Assembly: GCF_964199755.1 (NCBI RefSeq)
Contig: NC_133906.1
Span: 21,637,419 to 21,701,418 of the forward strand
Length of the DNA: 64,000 nt
Reading direction: 5' to 3'
Source of the DNA: Larus michahellis
Taxonomy: Eukaryota; Chordata; Aves; Charadriiformes; Laridae
Numbering within the stretch: the stretch's first letter is position 1; every line of letters begins with the position of its first letter. The notes under the pieces are model-generated. The model did not search any database, was not told the DNA's origin, and saw only the letters and a list, made by a program, of their open reading frames with translations. The translations under genes were made by a program, and so were the position numbers. Positions 6,262 to 49,900 of this stretch are shown in pieces.

Positions 6262-7641
6262 TCACTCCATGGCGGGGCCGGCGCGGGAGCAGCACCGGGG
6301 CCGCCGGACGTTTTGCAGCAGAGCCCGAAAGATGCTGGGCTGCCTCTTGGTCTCGCCTTTGCGGGGGGCTCCCTTGACGGAGCCGGTGCGGGTGCTCTGG
6401 GGGGGGGTCACCACCTGCCGCCCGTGCTCCTCGATCTGCTTCTCCAGGTGCTTCTGGATGGCCATGCCCAGCACTTCCACCTCCATGGAGGCCCCATACA
6501 CCTCCCACGTCATCCCCTTCTCGTCCCAGCTCACCTCCCGGATGGGCTCCGGAGCCTCCTCCACCACTGTCCCCTTCACGTGCACCTCCGGGTACGAGGC
6601 CTGCGGGGACTTGGCCACCGGCGTCATGGGCCCAGTGGCCACCGAGCGGGTCTCCACGGGCATGGACACCTGCATCTCCGCATCCTTCTTGGAGGGCTCC
6701 GGGCGTGGGGGGGCAGCGGAGCCCGGCTCTCTCTTGGGGAAGGTGAAGGCAGCAGCCCCGCCTGGGGGGCTCATGGGGCTCAAGGCCACCGACACCAGGG
6801 ACGCTCGGCTGTCCACTTGCGTCCCCATGTCCTGCGTCCCAGCGTCCTGCGGTGGGGTCACCTCGAAGGAGTAGGACTCGCAGAGCAGCTTGGCTGTCCG
6901 GGGCTGCTGGCTGCTCCCAGCATCCGCACCCCAGGCTGGGCGCCCCTCGGCTCTGCCCTGGCCCAGGGCGGCGGGGCTCGCCCCTGCCTCGCTTCGGCCC
7001 CCGCTCCCCACAGTGCCGGTGCCCGGGGGGTCTGCCGTGCCCCCCTGGGGGTGCTTGGGAGCCTCACTGCCCCTCAGCTGGGGCGCAGCGCCCATGGACG
7101 TCCCAGTGCCACCCTGGGGCTGCTCCTGGCTTGGAAGCTCAGCTGCTCCGGTGCCTGCAGCGGGCTCCATGAACGCCACGTGTTTGGCAGGAGCCAGCGC
7201 GCTCCCCACGTCCTTGCTGGGCGCCTTGAGGCAGGGCTCGGGCAGGGGGGACACGGGGGCTGTGTTATCCTTCTGGGCGCCGGGGACCCCCATCTCCGCA
7301 GGACCACAGGCAGTGGCAGCGCCACTTGGTCCCCCACAGCTCCCCGTCGCTGTCGCCAGGCTTGGCTCCGCGCCGGTGTCCGGGAGAAGCGTGCTGGGAG
7401 CTGATCCCGTCGGCGACGGCACCTTCTTCTCTGCCGCTGAGCCAGCCGTGGTGCCCTGGGCCTCCGGCTCAGCCACGCAGCAGGTCCTCATGGCACGGCC
7501 CCCCGCAGCACAGCCGGAGCCAGGCAGGCACTCGCCCGCCGGCGGGCAGCCAGGGGAGCTGGCGCCGGGCTCGCAGGCGTCCTCGGCCCCGGCCTGGCGG
7601 CTCAGCAGCTGCAGCCCCTCAGGCTCCTTAGCGCTGCCCAT
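6262..7641 (-). CDS. GPRIN1: G protein-regulated inducer of neurite outgrowth 1, single coding exon, short form
   Basis: Membrane-associated neuronal protein that binds activated Gi/o/z alpha subunits and promotes neurite growth. The coding exon starts after a strong acceptor (CTCTCTCTTGCAG, exon from 7681). ATG at 7641 gives [13 protein letters not shown], which resembles the family start (EDPAWLQLL in human, from memory), so the open frame upstream to 8112 is intronic. The product is 459 residues, against about 1000 in human: the long central SGKxDP-type repeat region of mammals is missing. The conserved C-terminal Go-binding region is intact: [11 protein letters not shown], then [26 protein letters not shown], and the end [14 protein letters not shown] with the paired cysteines that are likely lipidated. 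The disordered, Pro/Gly/Ala-rich middle is typical of the family. The stop is TGA at 6262-6264. Confidence 0.9.
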
Positions 7642-7663
7642 GCCCGGGGAGGGCTTCTCCCAT
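7628..7663 (-). promoter_or_regulatory. GPRIN1: Overlapping upstream ORF at the GPRIN1 start
   Basis: The first ATG in the coding exon (at 7663, good context AGCATGG) is out of frame with GPRIN1. It opens an 11-codon ORF that runs across the GPRIN1 ATG at 7641 and stops at 7628. Ribosomes would have to scan past it or re-initiate. It is seen in sequence; a translational effect is inferred. Confidence 0.45.
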
Positions 7664-8737
7664 GCTAGTCCTGCCACGGGTCTGCAAGAGAGAGGATGGG
7701 GCAGTGAGGGGGGAGCAGCATGCAGACCCCCAGCCCCCCTCAGCTGCCAACTGTTTTTCTCCATGCCACCCATGACAACAGGTTGGGCGGCCACCTGGAG
7801 CACCCACCGTCCTCGGCACAGCCTGTGTGGTGGCACCCCACGGGAAGGGAGGAACGGTGTCGGCTGCCTACCGTAAAAGCCAGCCTTGCCCCCCAGCACG
7901 GCCGGACTGGGAGCGGGATCCAGGTGCTGCTGCAGCTGCCAAAGCAGGGGGATGTGGCGCAGGCACCCCTGCGGAGAGAGCGGCAGCTGGAGCGTGGCCC
8001 CTGGCACCCGGTTGAGAGCCTGGGGGGGCTCAGCATCCCCCCCAGACTGCGGGGAGCTGGGTGCAGCGTGGGGTGAGAGCGAGCTAGCCTGGGGGCTGAG
8101 GGGGGGCTGCATGGCACGGCAGGCGTGTGGGGCAGCCTGAGCCGTTCCCTCTGCTGACTGGGACCAGCGTCCCCAGAACTGGGAGTGACATCTGTCCCCC
8201 GGCCACGGGAACCCCCAGCTCAGCGCCTACACCCCATGTCGAGGGTGCACCAAGCTCCGGCCATGCTGTGCAGAGCCGGCCACAGGCGGGCACCCCGGCA
8301 CAGCAGGGGGGGGACAGCCTGGTGTCACCCGACTGGCCCCAAACGCAGCCCTGCGGGGCAGCCCTGCAGCAGGAACACGGTGGAAAGCCCCCAGCTGTCC
8401 GGGAGCCCCCCAGCTCCGTCAGCGCGTCCCTCTGGAGCTGGGAGCGCACGTGTCCGGCAGCCGTGGGGCACCCCACGCCTCTGGCCACGGCCGCTCGTGG
8501 GTCCCGGAGACGGCAGAGCCGAGCAGACGCGGCTGGAGCCGAGCGAGTCTCCCCCGGCCGAGGCAGCACCGGGGCCCCGGAGGGCAATGACACCCCCACG
8601 CAGCACCCCGCTCCCGGGTGGGGTGCCGCCCTGCACCCTCTGTCCCGAGTGGGGGGGCCGTGGTCGCCCTGCCCGTCCCGGGACTGGGCGCGCTGCCCCG
8701 GTACCGCCGCTGCCCGGGGGAGCTGGGAGCCTCCGGC

Positions 8738-9955: not shown

Positions 9956-10100
9956 GGCAGGAGCTATAGATCTATAGGGTCGGCGGGGGGGGAGGGGGGT
10001 GCTAACGTTAACCCCAAGATGGGGGTTCCTCCGTCTTGGGGTTAACGTTAGCACCCCCCCCCGCACGCTGACCCTATAGATCTATAGGGTGAGGCAGGAG
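9956..10100. mobile_element. Hairpin-forming MITE-like element with 8-bp flanking repeat
   Basis: Two arms form a long inverted repeat. CTATAGATCTATAGGGT at 9964-9980 pairs perfectly with 10071-10087. GGTGCTAACGTTAACCCCAAGA at 9998-10019 (given here as its first and last bases GGTGCT...CCAAGA) pairs perfectly with 10034-10055. G-rich and C-rich segments between them pair partly, and the loop is about 14 nt. The octamer GGCAGGAG flanks the structure at 9956-9963 and 10093-10100, like an 8-bp target-site duplication of hAT-type elements. No transposase is present. An alternative is a host hairpin of another origin, such as a structured RNA. Confidence 0.5.
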
Positions 10101-11954: not shown

Positions 11955-12229
11955 CACCTGGCCACGCCCCATTTCAGGCCACGCCCCATTTCAGACCACG
12001 CCCCCACGTGACCACGCCTCGTCGGACCGTCTTCTCCCTGCGCAGACCCCGCCCCTCATCTCCCCACCTCCCATTGGCCATAGAATCATCCAATCAGAAG
12101 CACCAGGCAGTGCCCGCCCCGCCCATTCCGCGCTCCACAGTGCCCCCTCCGGCTGTCTCAGCGGGGCTCAGCCAATCAGAGAGGCGTTTGTTGAAGGGCG
12201 GTCCCTCACCCGCCGGGCCGGGGGCAGCC
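11955..12229 (+). promoter_or_regulatory. Promoter of the GLUD-like gene
   Basis: Upstream of the start codon are three CCAAT boxes (inverted ATTGG at 12073-12077; CCAATCAG at 12090 and 12172) and a run of CCACGCCC (KLF/Sp) boxes between 11962 and 12018, two of them in tandem CCACGCCCCATTTCAG copies. There is no TATA box, which fits a housekeeping-type promoter for a mitochondrial enzyme. Confidence 0.6.
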
Positions 12230-15200
12230 ATGTTGGGAGCAGTGAGGAGGCGGCTGGGCCCCGGCGCCGCCATGGTGGTGCCGGGGTGGTGCCGGGGCAC
12301 AGCCGGCCTGGCGAGGGGCAGCCCCGACGCCCCGGGGCTGCTGGCCATGGTGGAGGCCTTCTACGGGCGGGCGGCCGCCGCGGTGGAGGCGGAGGCTGGG
12401 GCCCAGTGGGGCGGGCTGCCCTGGGTGCGCGGGCTGCTGGAGACCATCCGTCGCTGCAGCTGTGTCCTGGAGGTGGCCTTCCCCCTGCGCAGGGACAGCG
12501 GCACCTGGGAGGTGGTGCGGGGCTGGCGGGCCCAGCACAGCCAGCACCGCCTGCCCTGCAAAGGGGGTGAGGCAGGGAGGGCAGCCCCACTGCGCACCTC
12601 TCCGTCCCTACCCAGCCCTGCGCCTGGGGCTCTGCTGGGCCCACCTCAGCCTGGCGCCAGCAGCCGGAGTGGGAGACCGTGTTAGTGCAGTGGTGGTCAG
12701 GATGCGTACAGAGGTGCCCAGGAGGACGCTCTCCGTGGGTGCTTCCCACAGGAGGCACCCGGGGGAGGCAGCTTTGCCAACCTCAGCTGCAGCCCGGCTG
12801 CTCCAGCTCGCACAGGAGCACAAGAGCAGTGTGGCTGGTGGCCACCCCTGTGTGTGTTTGACTTCTAATCAGAAACCTCAAGGCGGCGACAGTTCTGAGC
12901 CTGAGGGGGCTGGCCCACCCTCCCGTCCCCTCTCCCTTAGCCTGAGGCTTTTGCCGTGCTTTGACTGCTCTGTTTGAGGTGCTCGCCATAGCAAGGCAGG
13001 TGTCTGTGGGACGGCCGGCTGGTAGGAAACTACTTTCCATTCTGTGGTGATCTGGAGGAACAGGTCTAGCTGAACGATTGCTGATCACCTATTGCGACTA
13101 GATGCTGCTGTTTCAGAAGAGGCAAAGCCTTTCCTACAATGCCTCTGTGCCATTTGTGGTAAAAAGGCAGGGACTCTTCACTTCTCTTTCCTTTCCCAGG
13201 GGTTCGTTTCAGCAGCTCAATCGGCGTTGATGAAGTAAAAGCCCTGGCTGCATTAATGACATACAAATGCGCCGTAGTGGGTAAGTACAAGGGGAACGTA
13301 AAGCACATGGTGACTTGGGCATGGGATGGGGCTGCAATACAGTGACTCAGAAAAGCTCGTTAGATGCTTTGAAAATCAGAAGTGCTCCAGAAGTGCAGGA
13401 TGTTCCCCTGGGCACGGATGTGCGAGGACAAGGCTTGCTGCGGCTGCAGAATATGCCACTGGCAGTCCGGGATGTTCGTGTTAATCAGGGAGCATCAAGC
13501 ATTGTGCTTCTCAGATGCAGTCTCTGTGCCTGGGTTGTCATGGATTCAGCTCTGGCTGGTGGCGTTTGTGGCAGGCTCGGGGGCCATATCCTGTCCTGCC
13601 TTTGGCTCTGCTCCACAGAGGCTGTGTGGCATTAGCGGGGAGCCGAGTGTGGCGTGGGGAAGCACTGTCCCCTTGCCTGGATTCACCAAGAAGTTCATGA
13701 TTGCTGTGGTCACCTCCTTCCCCTGGGAAGCAGGTGAGCTGGTAGAGAACATCTTTCTGCCTTACCTGGTCTTTTCCAGATGTTCCTTTTGGTGGTGCCA
13801 TGGCAGGTGTGAGGATCGATCCAAGGAAATACTCGGTGAGTTCACTCCTTTCCTTCCCCTGACGATGGCCCATAACTCACGCTCCATTTGCACAGCCCTC
13901 CCTCTTGGTGCGTATCACAGCGATGCACTCTGACAAGCCGGGGGAGACGTTTGTAGTGAGTAACACTCACCCAGCAACTGCGAAAAGCAGCTTGGGACGG
14001 GGGGAAGGGTGGTGAACTCTGGTTTATGGGTGAGTGCCTCTGGCCAGACACAAGCTGAAGGAGTTTGGAGTAGGGACGCTGCCTGCTGTGCTGGGGGAAG
14101 GTGCAAATCTGTGAGGGGTTGGAAGGGCAGTGAGCAAAGGGACCTGGAGTTCACATATCTCTCTTTTTTGATCCAGGGTTCCCAGCTGCAGTGAGTGAAC
14201 TCCCTAGAGATGCCAGGGCGTGCCCTGTGCAGGCAGGGCAGGGCAGCTGCCAGATGCTGCATTGTGGTTTTTATTGGGGCCTGTAGTAACAACTGTGTTT
14301 TGTTGTTCTTGAACAGGAACATGAGCTGGAGAAAATAACGAGGCATTTTACTGTAGAGATGTCCAAGAAGGGGTTTATAGGTGAGCGTGGTTTTGTCACG
14401 GTTCTGTAAGCAGTGTGTGACTTGCAGGCAGGGGAGCGGGCAGCGGCCACCCAGCTGAGCGGGCACAGCACTGCCGCGCACACGCTGCCTGTCAGCAGCG
14501 CTCACTGCCCTGGTGCTCTGCTGTCTGCTCACTGCTTTGCTCTGCCTGCACTGTGAATTTGGAGCAGAGGAGGCCTCGTGTGATGCTGGGCATGGTGGGG
14601 CTGGCCCAGGCTGCCTCCCAGCTACTGCTGGGCAGGGCTCCCACCTTGGCCTTACCCTCCATCCCTCTGGCCTGTGCAGTCACAGGGAGGAGTGAAGGTG
14701 TCTCCTGCCTCAGCACATAATAGAGAGCTCCATAAGTGCTAATCACAGCACAAAGACCTTTACATTCCCTCTTTACTTGAAAGTATTGGGAAGGGACATG
14801 GCAAAGACGCCATGAAAGCCAAAGACGTTCATGCCTGAGGGAAGCTGGGGAGACCCTGGGCCATGGGCAGTACCACGCTTTGGTCAGGGGACTCCTTGGT
14901 GTGCCCGAGGATGTGACAAGCCTGCAGAAATCACCTGGCTATGCACATGCCATTGGTTGGAGCAAAGCAATTGAATTGCAAAGACAGGATTTGACAGATT
15001 TTTCTACCTGCGCAGGGCCTGGGATTGACGTGCTGGCCCCTGATGTCAGTACTGGGGAGCGGGAGATGTCCTGGATAGCTGATACCTACACCCACACACT
15101 GGGGTACCGGGTAAGCTCCGACAGTGCTGGTTTGGAGCCTGGGATGCCGTGGGCACTATGAGTGTCTGTGCCCAGAGGCCCTTGCCAGTGAATTGCTTTA

Positions 15201-18200
15201 GGTTTACCTGGGGCTTGGGGAAGGGCAAGGGAAGAAGAGGTTTGGGGAAAGTCTTCTCTAGAGGACGTGCACCAGGCGAGGCCATAGCCTTTGCTCTCCC
15301 CATCCTGGCCTCACAGGACATCAACGCCCAGGCGTGTGTGACAGGAAAGCCCATCAGCCAGGGAGGCATCCTCGGGCGACACTCAGCCACTGGGCGCGGG
15401 GTCCTGCATGGCATTGAGAACTACATCACCAACACAGACTACATGGACTGCATCGGCCTGAGCCCCGGCTTCCTCGGCAAGACCTTTGTGCTGCAGGTGA
15501 GTGCTCAGCCCAGCTAGAGTTTTGAAGAGGACTCTTCCTCGGTATCTTTCTGCCCCTCCTTTTCAGGAGAGCTTTCAGTCTTGGTGCTGCCTGGACGTGA
15601 TTTCCTGAATCTCTCCTCACCCTGTGGCAGCTGGCACTCCTTTGAGCAGTTTTTCAGACCTGCTGCATGCAGAGGTCCCGGGATGCCACGCTGCTCACAC
15701 CACACAGGCATTCCCAGGAATTCCTTGGGAATTCCCAAGGTTTCTCTGTAGCCATCCTGTCTGAAGTCGTTCATAAAATGGAATGATTTCAGTGACTGAC
15801 CCTTGTCTGCGCAGCAGGCAGAGCAGAGAGGTGGCAGGACACAGGGGCTTTGCCAGACCCCAGTGACAACGTCACGTTTCTGCCACCTGCAAACCACCCG
15901 CAGTGAGCCGTGATATTACCCATGGCAAAGGTCCTGCTTGTGTGTGCAGCCCCCATCTCTTCTGGGTGCTCTGTGGGTCTGGCCCGTGCTGGCCTCCCTG
16001 GCCCAGCGCTCTGGGAGCTCAGTGGCACCCTGAGGGTGCCAGGCCTGCCTTTTCCCCTCTCCTACCGGGAAGGACCTTCCCTTCCCTTCCCTTCCCTGCA
16101 GCCCGGGGCCTGCTCGCAACTGCGGTGAGGTGCTTCCCCCTGCTGTAGCTCCAGGAACTCCTGCTCTCGCCCAGGCACTGCTGCCCCAATCCACTGCCCA
16201 CTCTGCCCGCAGCTGCCCGTTTCCTGCTGAGGCCACTGCTCTCTGCAAGGGAGAAATAAACTGGAAACCGCACAGCTGAAGTCTTGCCTGCGGCTGGCAT
16301 TCCGTGCTTTCCTCCGAGCGCCCGCTCCCTGACACAGCTCCCTGCCGCAGGGAAAAGGCTTTGAACCGAGGCTTCAGCGGAGCTGCTGCCTGCGGTGCCG
16401 TTAGGAATGGCCCTGCCTTTGTTCATCCCTTTCCTTTCCGCACATCCTTCTGCTTCGCTGATATGGCAGAGAATGAGAAGGATGAAGTTCTTGGATACTG
16501 TGTGTATAATTTTTCTGTGTTTGGGGGGTGTTTTTGCAGCCTCAGGAACCAGTGTTGCTTTTAGGAGCTGTACCAAGCTGGCAAGCGCTTTGGGGCAGAC
16601 AGTGCAAAATCATCTGTTCCCAATAAAAGCTGAGCTATCACCATGGCCCTGCCCTGTGCCGTGGCAGCCGATCGCACCCCCTCAGCGTGATGTGCGGGAA
16701 GATTGCTCGGATTGTGCCTAGGTGCTGCGTGGTGCCCACCATGTGCTGCGTTTCTCATTGGATCTGTTTTCTACCAAGACCAGCTCTTAGAAACTGAATG
16801 GCATGCTGTGCTTGGAACATGACGTCCAGGAGCTCTGGAGGTGATAAAGACAGGCTGAGCTAGAAGCCTCTATCCCATGGGCTCTGCTTTTCACATCCTT
16901 CTAACTAGCCAAGGACATCTCTGTCCTGCCAGGTCCTGGTCTCCATCCAGCCAAAACATTCACTAAGAACTGCTAGATCAGGGGTTCCTATTTGTGCTTC
17001 TTAGCTCAGCCCCCTCTTACCAGCGCAGCAGGTCAGTTTTCAGTGTTTGTCCCCACGACTTCCCTCTCCCCAGCCCATCTCTGCTCTGTGTTGCCGTAGG
17101 GCTTTGGCAAAGTGGGGCTGCACACCATGAAGTACCTCCATGAGTATGGAGCCCGCTGCATCTGTGTTGGGGAGACAGACGGAGCCATTTACAATCCCAG
17201 GGGGATCGACCCCAAGGAGCTACAAGACTACGAGCAGGTGAATTGAGCCCAGCCAACCCAGCCCCTGCTCTTAGCCGGTGGTGGTCACTGCCTGTCTCTG
17301 AAACACCCACGGAGCAGGGGGCTGCCCCTCACCTTCTGCAGAGTGCAGCTCTGAGGGCAGCGCGCCATGCTGCCGGCTGGGCCCAGCAGAGTTCTCCTGC
17401 TCATTCCAGGGCCATGGCACCATAGTTGGCTTCCCAAAGGCAGAGCCCTATGATGGCAGCATCCTGGAGGTGCCCTGTGACATCCTCATCCCTGCCGCTA
17501 TTGAGAAGCAGCTCACGAGGGAGAATGCACCCCGGGTGCAAGCAAAGGTACAGACCACTCGCGCCGCACGCTCCCAACAGGCCCTGCATCAGTGCGAGTG
17601 ACAACAGCCCAGACGAACCTTCGCTTTTGGCGCTCAGCACCCTGGGGAGGTGTCACATCACTGCACTGACAACTCACCCGCTGTGCCAGAGGGACAAAGC
17701 CTGAGGCAGAGGTGGCAGGTCACATAATTCAGGGGAAGAGGAAAGTCTGAGCTCTTCCCTTTGCTGGCAGGGAGCAAGGATTGTTGGAGTGACCTTGACT
17801 GGCTCTTCTGGCATCCTTAGTCTTCATTGCTGTATCAGATCCTCCCCCCAGGGCAGAGGAGATGATATCCTCAAAGCTACTGGGTGTCACAGTGTTGACA
17901 CTGAAAATCATAGACAGCAGATAAGAGTGAACAAAGTAGGGGGCTGTGGTGAATCCCAGCTTCCTCCCTTCACTGTGAGCTCTAGGGACCCAAGGGACTG
18001 GGCGTGTTGGGACCTGGGACTCTGTCACAGCCAAGGTCTTTTGCAGCCTGAGCCTTAAATCGTTCTGTGGGAAGCATCTGAGCTTTTGCTCATCCTGAAC
18101 AGCTTCAGTGGGGAGGAGAGCACCCAGACCCCTGCCACCAAAAGTGGGCTGGTGGGGAGATCCAGCAGCAGGGAAAGCAGCCTGTCACTGGTTTCTTCTT

Positions 18201-20284
18201 TCCTTTCTTCTGCCTATCTCACCTCTGCTTGTGCTCTCAGATCATTGCAGAAGCTGCCAACGGCCCCACTACACCAGCAGCACACGAGATATTCCTGCAA
18301 AGAAACATCCTAGTTATCCCGGTATGTCCATCCCCACGCACACAGGGAGATGGTGGGCTCGCGTCTATTAGGGCCACCCGCTGTTGTCAGCTGCACCGAT
18401 GTGGATCCTGCTGAGCTCTGCCAGGCTCTGGGGTCAGGCAGCGTTGATGGTGCTGTCTCAGTCAGCCTGTTCCCTGCCTTACCCCCAGCTCCTGAGCACA
18501 TCTCAGATTCTGGTTTCCCTTCTGAGCGCTCCTGGCTCTTGGCTGCAGCAGCGGCAGACCACGGGGCTCCAGGCCAGCACCAGGTTGTCCTGCGGCTGCT
18601 GATGGGCCAGCAGCAAACTGCCACATCGCACCCTGTCAGAGCAGCCGGGGTCTCTGCTCAGAGGCAGTGCAGAGCCACAGTGGCTCTAGGATTCAGCCGT
18701 CCCAGTAACCTCAGGGCTGTCTCTGGGGGCAGAGCCCAGAGTATGGGGAGGGACCCAAGGCAGAGGAGGAGAGATCCCCAGGTGGGTCATGGGTCTCAGG
18801 GTCACCCTAAGCAGCAAATCTGAAGCGTCTGCTGCCCTTGGCAGGACGTGTATGTGAATGCAGGTGGTGTGACTGTGTCCTTCTTCGAGTGGCTGAAGAA
18901 CCTGAACCACGTAAGCTACGGCCGCCTCAGCTTCAAGTATGAGCGGGAATCCAGCTACTACCTCCTGCAGTCAGTGCAGCACAGCCTGGAGCAGTGGTTT
19001 GGCAAGGCCAGAGGGGAGATCCCCATCATCCCATCCCCAGAGTTCCAGGCCCGAGTGACTGTAAGTGTTCACAACCGTGCAGAGTTGTCCTGGCTCACTT
19101 CTTTCACATTCCCAGGCACTCCTGTCTGCCATCCCGGTGCTGAAGGCCGAGCCTGTGGCACACAACGGAGCCCCCCATGCTATCATCACACTAGTGGAGG
19201 GGATGGAGTGGAGATACCGTGTGCGGTGGTACAGCCCTACCATCGCTGGGTGCTGCAGGGAGTCCCTTGGGAGCCAAGCCACGAGCTGGAGCCAGCTGCA
19301 GAGGTGGCAAGCCAAGCTTAGACCACCTGTGGCGGTCTTACACGGAGCAGAGGGGCTGTGTTTGATCAATGGACTGGGGGGGACAATGTCTAGCCTCTCC
19401 CACAAAGGATCCCCTTGTTTTCTTCTCTCAGGGTGCCTCAGAGAAGGACATCGTGTATTCGGGATTGGCCTACACCATGGAGCAGTCAGCCAAGGTACCT
19501 CCACAGTCTCCTGGCCTTGCCCATCCCTGCTGTCATGCCCCTCGCCTCGCTGCAGAGGCTCTGTGCTGTATTTCAGGGGTGCCCACCCACAGCACCCCAT
19601 CACCACTCCCGGTGGGTCAGCACGAGGCCTGGGTTCATCTTCTCAGCGGTGGCTCTATCCACACTTTGGGTAAAGCCTCACGCTCAGCAGCGTTCCTTTT
19701 CGCTGTTGGGTCCCTGTCCCTCTGTCCGTCCCCCTGAACCTGTGTTCCCCATTTGCAGGGTTGCTTAGACGAGCCCGTGGGTGCAGGGTGGTGCCAGCAC
19801 TGCTGGGTGGGGGGGGTCTCATGCCACCCCTCGGGGAAGTGGCTGCATGCCGTGCTCCGCAGTGTGAGTGGTGTGCGTGGAGCTCATCCCTGGGCACAGG
19901 GTCTGTTGCCAGGGGCGTGCTGTGGGGCAGCAGCTGGAGAGCGTCTCCAGACTCGCTGGTACATGGCTCCAGGTATTAGAGAACAGCCCACCTGGTCGTT
20001 TGGTGTGGAGGTGACCTCTTCCCCTTCCCAATTCGGGTGCTCCCAGGGCCTGGCCTGGTGCTTGCACACAAGGTGCTGCCTGCAGCCTCCTCTCCGGTCC
20101 TCTGCCCACCCCTCGCCCCCAGACCCTCCCAGCACACACCGGCCTCACAGCTCTTCTCTCTCTCTAGCAAATTATGACCATGGCTGCAAGGTACAACCTG
20201 GGCCTGGACCAGAGAACCGCTGCCTACCTGTGCGCTCTGGAGAAGGTGTTCACCGTGTACAACGAGGCCGGCTTCACCTACTGA
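12230..20284 (+). CDS. Glutamate dehydrogenase paralogue (GLUD1-like), 12 exons, catalytic lysine replaced
   Basis: Member of the mitochondrial glutamate dehydrogenase family (glutamate + NAD(P)+ to 2-oxoglutarate + ammonium). Exons: 12230-12566, 13200-13280, 13780-13835, 14317-14380, 15016-15110, 15317-15496, 17100-17237, 17410-17547, 18241-18321, 18845-19060, 19432-19494, 20168-20284, coding for 521 residues. The N-terminus is Arg/Ala-rich and fits a transit peptide. Family motifs kept: [64 protein letters not shown], antenna [10 protein letters not shown]. The motif PFGGAKAG reads PFGGAMAG: the Met codon is at 13800-13802, where the catalytic Lys (bovine K126) belongs. Other changes: [10 protein letters not shown] to [10 protein letters not shown] (19456-19485), GGIHGR to GGILGR, MRYLHRF to MKYLHEY, all at allosteric sites in GLUD1. 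Splice sites and frame are intact, so it is not an ordinary pseudogene. It lies between GPRIN1 and SNCB, where human has no such gene. Confidence 0.9.
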
Positions 20285-22432: not shown

Positions 22433-25701
<3,269 letters not shown>

Positions 25702-43900: not shown

Positions 43901-46900
43901 AGCATCTCGCCTGTTTCCATGGCAACGCAGCGGCAGGTGAGCGGCGAGGCCGACGCGGTGCGGGAGCCGCCACGGCGCCGCGTGGGGGGCTGCTGCCCAC
44001 GGGGCACCCACGCTGCGCCCACGGCCTGGGGGTGCCCACGCTGTGTGGGGTGTCTGTGGCGTGGCGGGGGGGGGCCCACAGTACACGGGGGTGCCTGCGG
44101 GGGGAGGGTGCCCGTGGTGCAGGGGGTGCCCGCGGGGAATGGGGCACCCGCAGGGAACGGGGCGCCCGTGGTGCGTGGGATACAGGTGGGGTTTGGGATA
44201 GCCGTGCTGCGTGGAGCGCCTGCGGTGCGTTGGATGCCCACGGGGTGCATGGGGTGCCCGCAGTGCATCGGGTGCCCATGGTGCATGCAGTGCCGCAGGG
44301 CACGGGGTACCCGCCGTGCATGGGGTGCTCGTGGTGCGTGGGGCACCCACGCCACAGCCCCTCCACGCCCTCGCCGGGGCTCCAGGCCAGCTCCGGCCTC
44401 TTGGCCGTGCCGCATGGCTTTGTCCCTGACCGCACAGCGGCACAGAGCCCCGCCGGTGCCCAGCATGGTGCCAAGCAGCAGGAGAGCATCCCGCCCGGGG
44501 GCTCTGCGGGGTGTCTGGCAGCCCCCCAGCTCTGCCGCTCGCTGCATGTCCCCAGCTTTGGTGGCTGCCCCTGGTCCCACCCTGCCCACAAGACACCTGA
44601 CACCCCATTTGGGTGGGCAGCTGGGGGGGGTTCCGTGCCCATGCTGCCTCCCCCACCCATCGCTGCCGTCCCCGGGCTTCCCGCGCCGCTCCACTGGGCC
44701 GTGATGGATAGACACGCCGCTCAGCGACTGCTGTACTCGTTTCACGTGTGATCAAAAGGCCGGTCCCCACAGCACCGCTCTCCCGTTCACCCGCCGTGCC
44801 CGCCGCGGCCGCCCTGGCCGGAGGCAGTGGTGGTGCTGTGCGGCAGCAAACCTGGGATGTAATAAAGAAACTGGGTTGCCTTCCTGCCCTTCTCAGCAGC
44901 GCGGAGCCACGCGTGCCGGCGCGGGCAGCGCGGCATGGGCACCCAGGGGTGCGCGAGCGGCAGGCGCGGCGGTGCGAGCGGCGGGTGCTGTGGCAAGCCG
45001 TGCCGCAGCTGGCATCGGGCACGGCACCGCACCGGGGACCGCAACGCCTGTCCGCACCGTGACCCCCCTGGGCCGGCCCCGGGCTGCGGCTGGGGGGGGT
45101 CGTTAAACCAGTGAAATATGAAATGCCTGTATATCCCCGACAGGGGTTTTAATTAAATTAATTGCCAGCGACATTGTAAAAGTGCTGATGGGGTAATAAC
45201 CGGCGCGTTATGGTGGCCGTTTATCTTCCCCGCGTAAATTAGCTGCAGCACCTTGCCCATCCCGGCGGGCATCGCGGCGGGCTCGCTCGGCGCCCGCTCC
45301 TGGCTCGGAGGGGCCTGATCCAGCTGGGGGGAGCAGCGAGGCCCGGAGCCCCCCTGGGGGACTCAGCCAGGGCTCAAGGGACCCCCGTGTCCCCCGCGTC
45401 CCCATCCCCGCCACCAGGTGGGAGCGGGCTGGGGTGGGCACGGGCAGTGGGGGTCCCACGGGCGTGTGGGGGGCGGCGGGCGGTTGCCAAACGAAGGCAC
45501 TTAATTACTGCGCATTCCATCCCATTTAATTGCTTATTAAATCCTAACCAGCCAATTAGCAGCAGCAATTACAGCTTCATTCAGTGACACAATCGGTATT
45601 TTATCGTTTGTTAATCAAATGCTTATTTAGGGCCTGGTTTATTAACTCTTTCCGCAGCGGGTGCCGGCGGGGTGGGGGGAGTGGGGGCACCTGGCCATGT
45701 CTGGGCTGGGGGACCTGGGCGCTGTGGGACCGTGCCACAAGCCGTGTCCCCAGCGCTGCTGTCCCCACGCGGCAGTGGCACCCACAGCCCCCAGGCAAAG
45801 CTGGGGGATGCTCGACCCCCCTGAGGGACATGTGTGCAGCCCCGAATCGCCCTTGCCACCCTGGGGACACTGGGGACAGCCAGCCCCTGTGCGCCATGCG
45901 TGTGCCCACTCCCAGGCGGGTGCTAGTGGCACAGGAGAGGGCGCACCGCTGTGCCATCCTGCTGTGTCCCCAGGGCATGGGACACGCACCCCACCGCTTG
46001 CCCTGTGCCACCCCAGGGGGCGACGGGGCAGGACGCGGCCCCCGGCTGGTGCCTGGCAGCGTGCTGGGGAGGGGGGACGGCGGGCGCCCCGGGAGGCGTG
46101 AGCGATGGCCCTTGTTGGTCACACTACATTTCCTTTTCATTAGCGCTAAGTGTGGACATGAGGGATCGGCGCGGGTTCAGCGGGCGCAGCCACCGCGCGG
46201 CTGCTCTCCCTGATGGATGGCGGGGCCGGGAGGGGGCTGCCGCGTCACCGGCGGGGGGACGGTGGTGAGGCACAGGGCCACCGGCACGGAGCCACGGCGG
46301 GATGGGTGATCACCCAGCCTGGGCACGCTGGAGGTGGCCGAGCCCCCATCTCCCCACAGGTGCTCAGCAAAGCGCGACGGTGGCCAACCCGGTGTCCGGC
46401 GCGTCCCCGGACCTGCTGCCACACTTCCAGCTGGAGCCGGAGGACGTCTACATCGTGAAGAACAAGGCGGTGAGCCTGGCCTGCCGCGCCACCCCTGCCA
46501 CCCAGATCTACTTCAAGTGCAACGGCGAGTGGGTGCACCAGGGTGACCACGTCACGCAGCACGGCACTGACCGCGGCACCGGTGAGCGCTGCCGGGAGGG
46601 ACGGCAACAATGCCGGTCACGAGGGTCTGGAGGGGGGGTTGCATGGGGCTGGGGCTGTGGCAACCACTCCCGGCATGCCAGTGCTGACGTGCCGCCCGCC
46701 AATGGCAGGGCTGCCGGTGATGGAGGTGCGCATCGAGGTCACCCGCCAGCAAGTGGAGAAGATCTTTGGGTTGGAGGAGTACTGGTGCCAGTGCGTGGCC
46801 TGGAGCTCCTCCGGCACCACCAAGAGCCAGAAAGCCTTCGTGCGCATCGCCTGTGAGTGTCTGCGGGTGCCCAGATGGGGCGCGGGGTGCTGCCACCCCG

Positions 46901-49900
46901 ATCCCCCCCGTCACCCCTGTGCTTCCCCAGATCTGCGCAAGAACTTCGAGCAGGAGCCAACGGCCAGGGAGGTCTCCATCGAGCAGGGCATCGTGCTGCC
47001 ATGCCGCCCTCCCGAGGGCATCCCCCCCGCCGAGGTGAGCCCCCACGGTCCGGCAGGTCAGGATGCAGCTGGGGGTTCCTCTTTGCTCGTGGGGACGCCG
47101 TGGGTGCCCCCCAGAGGGGGTGACCCCCTGACATCCCCCTGCCCCGCAGGTGGAGTGGCTGCGCAACGAAGAGCTGGTGGACCCGGCGCTGGACGCCAAC
47201 GTCTACGTGACGCCGGAGCACAGCCTGGTGCTGCGCCAGGCCCGCCTGGCCGACACCGCCAACTACACCTGCGTGGCCAAAAACATCGTGGCCCGTCGCC
47301 GCAGCGCCTCCGCTGCCATCACCGTCTACGGTACAGCCCCACCGCGCCTGTCCCCACCATGCTGCCCCGGTGTCGCCCTCCCCGTCCTGTCCCTCCCCGC
47401 GTCCCCCCCCGTCCCGGCGAAGCGCTGATGGGTCCCTCTCCACCCAGTGAACGGCGGCTGGTCGACGTGGACGCAGTGGTCGGGCTGCAGCACCAGCTGT
47501 GGACGGGGCTGGCAGAAGCGGAGCCGGACCTGCACCAACCCCACACCCCTCAACGGGGGGGCTTTCTGTGAGGGCCAAAACGTGCAGAAAACCGCCTGCA
47601 CCACCCTCTGCCCAGGTACCCGCCCTGCCCCGGGCGCCGCCGCCGCCCCCGCCGTGCCGATGCTGCACTCCCTGCTGCACCCACTGCGGTCCCTGTCCCC
47701 CCCCGGGTGTCTCGTCCTGCCACCACCACCCCCCCACCGTGTGTGTCCGTCTCTGCCGGCCCCGGGGCAGGGAAGGGGGATGGCAGCGGGGCGCTGACCC
47801 CCGGCTGTGCCCGCAGTGGACGGCGCCTGGTCGGAGTGGAGCAAGTGGTCGGTGTGCGGGGCCGAATGCACCCACTGGCGGAGCCGGGAATGCTCGGAGC
47901 CGGCGCCACGCAACGGGGGCCAGGAGTGTCGCGGCCCCGAGCTGGACACGCGCAACTGCACCTCCGAGCTCTGCAGCCACGGTGAGGGCGGCGGGGGACG
48001 GTGGGGGTACCCCCACCCGGGGGTGGGTGGACGGGGGATGCCCGTGGGTGCTGACGCCCTGCCCCACGCAGCCGCCGGCGGCGCGGAGGACGTGGCGCTG
48101 TACGTGGGGCTGGTGGCCGTGGCCGTGTGCCTGGTGCTGCTGTTGCTGGTGGGGGTGCTGGTGTACTGCCGCAAGAAGGGGGGCCTGGACGCTGACGTGG
48201 CCGACTCCTCCATCCTCACCGCCGGCTTCCAGCCCGTCAGCATCAAGCCCAGCAAGGCCGGTGAGCGAGGGCTGCGGGAACGGGGCTGCGCACCCGCGCT
48301 GGGACGTGGTGGCCCTCGGGACCTGGGGGCGGCCATGCCCCTGGGGGGAGCCCAGGGCAGGGGCTGTGCGTCCCGTGGGGGTCCCTGGTCTCGAGTGGGG
48401 GCTCTGTGCCCTATGGGGGCCCTGACCTAGGGACAGGGGGGCTGTGTCTTAAATGGTCCCTGACTGTGGGGTCAGTGCTCTGTGCCTCATAGGGTCGCTG
48501 GCTGTGGGCAGGGGCTCTGTGTCCTATAGTGTCCCTGGTCCCTATAGGGTCTGTGCTGGGTTGGTGCTGGGTGCTCTGGGGACCCCAGGGTGACTGTGCC
48601 TCGAGGGTCTGTGCTGTGGGGCAGAGGCTCAATGCCCTTTGGAAGCCCGGTGTGACTGTGCCCCGTAGGATCCTTACGATGGGGCAAGCGTGGTGTGTCC
48701 CATGTCCCCTGGGGCCAGTTGTGCCGCCGTGTCACCGGCGGGGACCCCCCCCTGCCCCCCCAATCCCCGCTGTGCCCCGGCGCCACGGCCCCCTGCTCTG
48801 TGCCACAGACAACCCCGGCCTGCTCACCATCCAGCCCGACCTCAGCACCGCCACCATGACCTACCAGGGCTCGCTCTGCCCGCGCCAGGACGGCCCCGCC
48901 AAGCTCCAGTTGCCCAACGGGCACCTGCTGAGCCCGCTGGGCGCCGGGCGGCACACGCTGCACCACAGCTCGCCCGCCGCCGAGGGTGCCGACTTCGTGG
49001 CCCGGCTCTCCACCCAGAGCTACTTTCGCTCCCTGCCCCGCGGCACCACCAACATGGCCTACGGCACCTTCAACTTCTTGGGGGGGCGGCTCATGATCCC
49101 CAACACAGGTATGGCGGGATGGGGACGGGGTGCCGGAGCATCGCCCGGTGCGGGCGGGTCCCCATGGGGCTCACCCCCCCCCCCCCGCCTGCACCCCCCC
49201 ACCCAGGGATCAGCCTGCTCATCCCACCCGATGCCATCCCGCGGGGGAAGATCTACGAGGTCTACCTGACCCTGCACAAGCAGGAGGAGGTGAGGTAGGT
49301 GCCGTGGCCAGGGCTGCTGGGACACAGGGCTGCGGGGGAAAGAGCTGGGGGGGGGGGTTGGCCTTGCTCAGCTGCCCCCAACGCTGCCCCAGGCTGCCCC
49401 TCGCCGGCTGCCAGACGCTGCTGAGCCCCATCGTCAGCTGCGGCCCCCCCGGCGTCCTCCTCACCCGCCCCGCCATCCTGGCCATGGGTCACTGCGTGGA
49501 GGCCAGCGCTGAGAACTGGAGCATCCGGCTGAAGAAGCAGTCGTGTGAGGGCACGTGGGAGGTGAGCGCCCGCCGAGGGGCTCGAGGGGGTCCGGGCTGG
49601 GGGGGGAGCGAGGGGGGATGCCCGTGTCTGGGGTGCATCTCTGCCTGGGTGCCGCAGGACGTGCTGCAGCTGGGCGCCGAGCCGTGCACGGAGCTGTACT
49701 ACTGCCAGCTGGAAGCGCAGGCTTGCTACATCTTCACGGAGCAGCTGGGGCGCTTCGCCCTGGTCGGGGAGTCCCTCAGCATGGCGGCCTCCAAGCGCCT
49801 CAAGCTGGTCCTGTTCGCGCCGGCCGCCTGCCCCTCGCTCGAGTACAACATCCGCGTCTACTGCCTCAGCGACACCCAGGACGTCCTCAAGGTACCGGGG

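Follow-up and report, generated by a model that had tools for sequence, protein, structure and literature searches.

A GLUD1 ohnologue with methionine at the catalytic lysine position in Larus michahellis, a candidate pseudoenzyme

The window analysed here, a stretch of 64,000 nucleotides of the Larus michahellis genome, carries on its plus strand a glutamate dehydrogenase (GDH) gene with 12 coding exons (12230-20284) and a 521-aa product. The catalytic lysine of the GGAKxG motif, a feature of the Glu/Leu/Phe/Val dehydrogenase family, is absent from this protein and Met147 stands in its place. Judging from the sequence, this ohnologue of GLUD1 is probably catalytically crippled and blind to nucleotides, with its frame and fold under selection. 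The reading of the product as a selected pseudoenzyme is drawn from one genome and is given a probability of about 0.5.

Gene structure and the catalytic lysine

All 11 introns are of the GT-AG type and the 12 coding exons join in one frame without any stop, frameshift or splice defect, as the preliminary description of this DNA had stated. The exons and the substituted codon are:

12230-12566, plus strand: coding exon 1, with start ATG at 12230-12232 and an Arg-containing, presumed mitochondrial leader
13200-13280, plus strand: coding exon 2, carrying the Lys114-equivalent of TYKC
13780-13835, plus strand: coding exon 3, flanked by AG and GT and holding Met147
13800-13802, plus strand: ATG codon of Met147, equivalent by alignment to bovine Lys126 and to Lys130 of mature human GLUD1 (505 aa)
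14317-14380, plus strand: coding exon 4
15016-15110, plus strand: coding exon 5, with the Asp168-equivalent kept and the invariant Pro169 (human numbering) changed to Leu
15317-15496, plus strand: coding exon 6, with the GTP-site change H213L (human numbering)
17100-17237, plus strand: coding exon 7, with GFGNVG changed to GFGKVG and the GTP-site changes R265K and R269E
17410-17547, plus strand: coding exon 8
18241-18321, plus strand: coding exon 9
18845-19060, plus strand: coding exon 10, corresponding to GLUD1 exons 10 and 11 joined and encoding the antenna region
19432-19494, plus strand: coding exon 11, pivot helix with H454Y and R463Q (human numbering)
20168-20284, plus strand: coding exon 12, with TGA stop at 20282-20284

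The protein contains the Pfam domains ELFV_dehydrog_N (167.1 bits) and ELFV_dehydrog (182 bits), scored against cut-offs of 25.3 and 23.4, and its best solved relative in a phmmer search is human GLUD1 (789 bits, residues 30-521). Exons 2-9 match those of GLUD1 in length and phase, including the 56-bp exon 3. The first 33 amino acids hold five K/R and one D/E, and the leader in exon 1 presumably targets the product to mitochondria. The alignment with GLUD1 shows a gap of seven residues early in the mature part (window 12360-12410), within the GC-rich exon 1. At exon 10 one intron has been either lost in the window gene or gained in GLUD1.

The Met147 codon lies in frame at the position of the catalytic lysine, exactly at the coordinates and with the codon first described, and the GLUD1 gene of the same genome (hereafter local GLUD1) has AAG at this position. 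Bacterial relatives were collected with scan patterns from which the Met147 position was excluded; of the 539 matching stretches, 435 code for a relative, and the 80 best of these were retained. The expectation of a lysine was borne out by human GLUD1, local GLUD1 and 80/80 of these bacterial enzymes (the best 80 of 435), a sample that leans to normal enzymes because it was ranked against a query starting with GLUD1, and in which many members are Pedobacter or other Bacteroidota and not independent (32 remain below 85% identity). The bovine residues Lys90, Lys114, Asp168, Arg211 and Ser381, which we take as the list of further substrate and catalytic residues, have equivalents that are kept in the window protein in 5/5 cases, and each is found in 80/80 of the best 80 of 435 bacterial relatives. 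This includes the lysines of PCKGG and TYKC and the aspartate of APDxSTGE, whose retention had been noted before.

Mutation of the corresponding clostridial K125 is crippling, and Lys102 of Arabidopsis GDH and K126 of the E. coli enzyme are presumed here to occupy the position of bovine K126. In Arabidopsis, Lys102 primes the water molecule that attacks the imine (PMC7326016), and E. coli K126, which in docking contacts the carbonyl of the substrate, is described as a key residue for catalysis (PMC8784811). A loss of normal catalysis is thus likely for the window protein, as far as residue conservation can tell. Among the titles and abstract openings listed in a search of the openly accessible literature, there was no report of this lysine loss in GDH.

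The substitution is real in the assembly and no obvious artefact. Several ways in which a lysine might still be supplied were considered and rejected. No second Lys-bearing exon 3 was seen in the window by tblastn with human GLUD1, which removes an alternative exon in the introns. Exons of GLUD occur at two loci only in the assembly, namely the window gene and GLUD1, and the exon-3 stretch has one match in 1.4 Gb, the window gene itself, as a single copy with no second haplotype; extra GLUD copies or a second haplotype were therefore discarded. Rescue by RNA editing was rejected because neither A-to-I nor C-to-U editing converts ATG to a lysine codon.

Synteny and origin

The window gene lies on contig C15 between two genes on the opposite strand:

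6262-8226, minus strand: GPRIN1-like coding stretch upstream of the GLUD gene (Pfam GRIN_C, 1.8e-43)
22436-25671, minus strand: beta-synuclein (SNCB) gene, tail to tail with the GLUD gene (Pfam Synuclein, 1.1e-42)

The names GPRIN1 and beta are presumptive assignments by position, as is the assignment of which synuclein and which GPRIN is present in the other blocks. GLUD1 is found on contig C10, on the minus strand, with 13 coding exons and 555 aa. Its plus-strand neighbours are a synuclein exon, 43 kb beyond the 3' end of GLUD1, and a GPRIN gene, about 89 kb beyond the 5' end. When C10 is flipped, the order and orientation of GPRIN, GLUD and synuclein are identical on both contigs, and the window gene therefore has the pattern of the SNCB/GPRIN-linked ohnologue of GLUD1 from the early vertebrate genome duplications. 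An ancestral SNC-GLUD-SHLD-GPRIN block has been inferred (PMC10451939). A retrocopy or tandem copy was rejected because introns lie at GLUD1 positions and the syntenic block is duplicated.

A third synuclein exon and GPRIN gene, about 224 kb apart and both on the plus strand, were observed on a further contig (C9:36868117-37092640). No match to GLUD was found on C9, so GLUD has probably been lost from this block. In the window, an UNC5 gene probably lies beyond the synuclein gene, since an open stretch on the plus strand (46474-47571) encodes the N-terminal domain of the Unc5 netrin receptor. A Pfam search of the 20 long stop-to-stop reading frames (of 198, at least 150 aa) gave the GRIN_C and Unc5 domains, and nothing in the other 18.

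In a protein tree local and human GLUD1 group to the exclusion of the window gene at a weakly supported node (82/49), and the branch of the window gene is 0.51 long compared with 0.05 for local GLUD1 plus 0.083 for the stem between GLUD1 and human. To our knowledge, this GLUD is missing from human 5q35 and the SNCB-linked lineage is absent from mammals. A GDH branch of birds and reptiles, called distant, is mentioned in a paper from 2023 (PMC10652781). The window gene probably belongs to that branch, which makes a new gene lineage unlikely.

Divergence, selection and competing explanations

The preliminary description of the protein as highly conserved has to be qualified. Core identity to human GLUD1 is 329/455 (72%) for the window protein and 432/455 (95%) for local GLUD1, which marks the window gene by sequence as clearly the faster-evolving copy. 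Compared with local GLUD1, 344/521 aligned residues are identical (321/455 in the core).

The divergence reaches columns that otherwise do not vary. At 115 columns identical in the 80 bacterial enzymes, human GLUD1 and local GLUD1, the window protein differs at nine (human positions 13, 60, 97, 130, 151, 156, 169, 258 and 386). Among them are Tyr386, invariant in the best 80 of 435 bacterial relatives, and the coenzyme-loop Asn258, which is Asn in 80/80 of them and Lys in the window protein (GFGNVG to GFGKVG, window 17100-17117). With the 32 non-redundant bacterial enzymes and both GLUD1s as reference, 9/116 invariant columns are broken. A plain leave-one-out count for the 32 bacterial rows gives a mean of 0.75 and a maximum of 4, a biased comparison because close kin of a bacterial row in the set mask its changes whereas the window protein has no such kin. 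Since its nearest relative is at 69%, leaving out kin nearer than 66% or 72% makes the bacterial rows equally isolated; the mean is then 1.34, the maximum 4, and 0/32 reach nine. When kin nearer than 60% are left out, with 28/32 rows scoreable and a larger set of columns, the mean is 3.14, the maximum 10, and 1/28 has at least nine. Measured against bacteria alone, the window protein breaks 14/122 columns and local and human GLUD1, both normal enzymes, six each. There is thus a real excess of broken invariant columns, though not an extreme one when the strictest control is applied.

The regulatory sites have changed as well. Positions 213 and 296 and the other GTP positions beyond the published list are assumed by us to be GTP contacts, and the same applies to the ADP-site positions other than R463 and R400. 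GTP positions 217, 221, 262, 265, 266, 269, 450 and 454 and ADP positions R463 and R400 were taken from PMC12145852. By alignment, 5/12 GTP positions differ from human (H213L, R265K, R269E, E296Q and H454Y), R463Q is the sole change at the ADP positions (10/11 kept), and two of the ten antenna positions checked that are hit in hyperinsulinism differ (N410S and S445T). According to the same source, the interaction with GTP is abolished by mutations at several positions including 265 and 269, mutations at 450 and 454 cause GTP resistance with basal activity retained, and R463A impairs activation by ADP (PMC12145852). With these GTP contacts and the ADP contact R463 lost, a poor response to the nucleotide switches would be expected, chiefly through H213L, R269E and H454Y, while R265K and E296Q would be milder. 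The residues Lys265, Glu269 and Tyr454 are common in the best 80 of 435 bacterial enzymes (69/80, 65/80 and 28/80), so the changes need not be damage and may represent the loss of an animal feature. The altered GTP and ADP contacts go beyond the single-residue picture given earlier, as does the identity of the gene as an ohnologue.

Near-invariant columns have been kept in 139/152 cases, and 201/340 of the other columns equal human. Against GLUD1, non-synonymous divergence is 0.19 per site and synonymous divergence 0.81, which is saturated; these figures and the column counts are averages since the duplication, and a pairwise dN/dS was rejected because of the saturation. Neutral decay was simulated with assumed rates of 2e-9 substitutions and 1.5e-10 indels per site per year and a transition bias of 4. 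After 2, 4, 10 and 20 My, frame and splice sites had survived in 44%, 18%, 1.7% and 0.03% of runs, respectively. At none of the eight ages simulated did more than 0.13% of the 3000 runs combine a surviving frame with at least nine broken invariants. Under these assumed rates, therefore, most of the losses at invariant sites probably occurred while the frame was kept. The simulation does not date the change from Lys to Met, and Met could be the latest change.

This leaves room for a recent loss in a single lineage, in which a fast-evolving but active ohnologue acquired a methionine that is perhaps polymorphic or species-specific, with the gene possibly at the onset of decay. The other catalytic residues are in place, a single genome was examined, the paralogue branch is long (0.51 against 0.05 and 0.083), and neutral survival of the frame for 2 or 4 My is not rare at the assumed rates. 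The retention of 5/6 catalytic residues and 139/152 near-invariant columns, as in an active or recently active enzyme, also speaks against a dead enzyme. However, the gene shows no stop, frameshift or splice defect, and eight further strictly invariant residues are changed where simulated decay breaks a mean of 1.9 at 4 My, so decay alone is no explanation. A recent loss is possible but appears unlikely.

A changed enzyme, in which Met147 adapts the active site to a different substrate or reaction while the substrate lysines and the coenzyme site are still used, is doubtful. Both Pfam domains score well and the equivalents of Lys90, Lys114, Asp168, Arg211 and Ser381 are kept, but the lysine is present in all of the best 80 of 435 bacterial relatives and is central to the chemistry according to PMC7326016 and PMC8784811, and Asn258 and Tyr386, invariant in the 80, are both changed.

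An isolated mistake of sequencing or assembly in a codon that is otherwise normal would need to affect one base only, 13801 (ATG for the AAG of GLUD1), in a sequence present as a single copy in the assembly, but it is very improbable given that the rest of the gene is free of frame- or splice-breaking errors and that the other invariant and regulatory changes would stay unexplained. Equally improbable is a gene with little transcription and no important protein, whose retention next to the synuclein gene would be due to chance or to a role as RNA or in regulation: CpG observed/expected around the start is just moderate (0.76 and 0.68 in two 200-base bins) and within 1.5 kb downstream of the stop TATAAA is the only match resembling a polyadenylation signal, but the 0.19 against 0.81 and the better retention of invariant columns, both as averages since the duplication, argue against it.

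Upstream of the coding sequence the following motifs were found:

12073-12176, unstranded: three CCAAT/ATTGG boxes, 58-157 bases before the ATG, promoter-like by motif match only

Further upstream, a nested hairpin with a transposon-like appearance was observed (9964-10087), with inner arms at 9991-10025 and 10028-10062 (35 nt, 91% complementary) and outer arms at 9964-9997 and 10054-10087 (34 nt, 88%). In the search for orthologues, one scan of viral contigs gave no relatives.

A candidate non-catalytic subunit and known systems

The preferred explanation is that the ohnologue still encodes a GDH-fold, antenna-bearing and presumably mitochondrial protein that would serve as a subunit with little or no catalytic activity, either by itself or in hexamers shared with GLUD1. 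Without the lysine, water would not be primed for the attack on the imine and the substrate would lose the hold on its carbonyl, which should leave very little or no normal oxidation of glutamate. Glutamate or 2-oxoglutarate may still be bound, as the substrate residues are kept. For this protein we infer a loss of activity, ongoing selection on its exact present state and hexamer mixing. The earlier proposal of a pseudoenzyme under selection is partly supported by the intact gene, the change from Lys to Met, the likely loss of catalysis and the argument for selection on the frame; the support does not extend to the methionine itself being old or selected, to a place of the product in GLUD1 hexamers or to a new activity.

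Plant GDH isozymes form mixed hexamers (PMC7326016) of alpha and beta subunits (PMC5192433), and in Arabidopsis each of the six active sites is built by a single subunit (PMC7326016). If this rule holds here, neighbouring subunits could not repair a Met147 subunit, which would lower and retune a mixed assembly; dead subunits would change how many active sites the assembly has and how it responds to GTP. A broader suggestion, that the SNCB-linked GLUD of sauropsids is a conserved dead, GTP- and ADP-blind subunit in GLUD1 hexamers that retunes glutamate breakdown by dosage, is tentative and rather unlikely as it stands. The idea of a conserved dead enzyme rests on one genome.

GDH sets the entry and exit of amino-acid nitrogen at the citric-acid cycle, and in humans a weakened inhibition of GDH by GTP leads to hyperinsulinism (PMC9887739). 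If the preferred explanation is true, a sister GLUD lacking the lysine and with partial GTP and ADP sites is a natural test of a dead, unregulated subunit, and the glutamate metabolism of the animals that carry it cannot be read from GLUD1 alone. The gene is a candidate metabolic pseudoenzyme tied to a genome-duplication block and can be traced between GPRIN1 and SNCB in any vertebrate genome.

Compared with known systems, the window gene is closest to GLUD1, with which it shares the domains, the antenna region, the exon phases and the synteny block. It differs in the Met for Lys, the altered GTP and ADP contacts, the seven-residue gap near the mature start, one intron fewer and its faster evolution. 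GLUD2 of apes is also a second GLUD with reduced GTP control (PMC12145852). However, GLUD2 is described as a recent retrocopy and is active (PMC12145852, PMC5192433), while the window gene has introns and a duplicated syntenic block and lacks the lysine. The testis GDH Bb8 of Drosophila is, like the window gene, a diverged paralogue and has eroded GTP and ADP pockets, but it keeps the active-centre residues and is active (PMC10652781). The bird and reptile GDH branch in the same paper is probably the lineage of the window gene; section 5 of that paper gives no residue-level account of it (PMC10652781). The sperm leucyl aminopeptidases of Drosophila (S-Laps) are enzyme paralogues that lost activity and were kept as structural proteins (PMC10652781). 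They belong to another enzyme family and serve only as a precedent for a possible use of the window protein.
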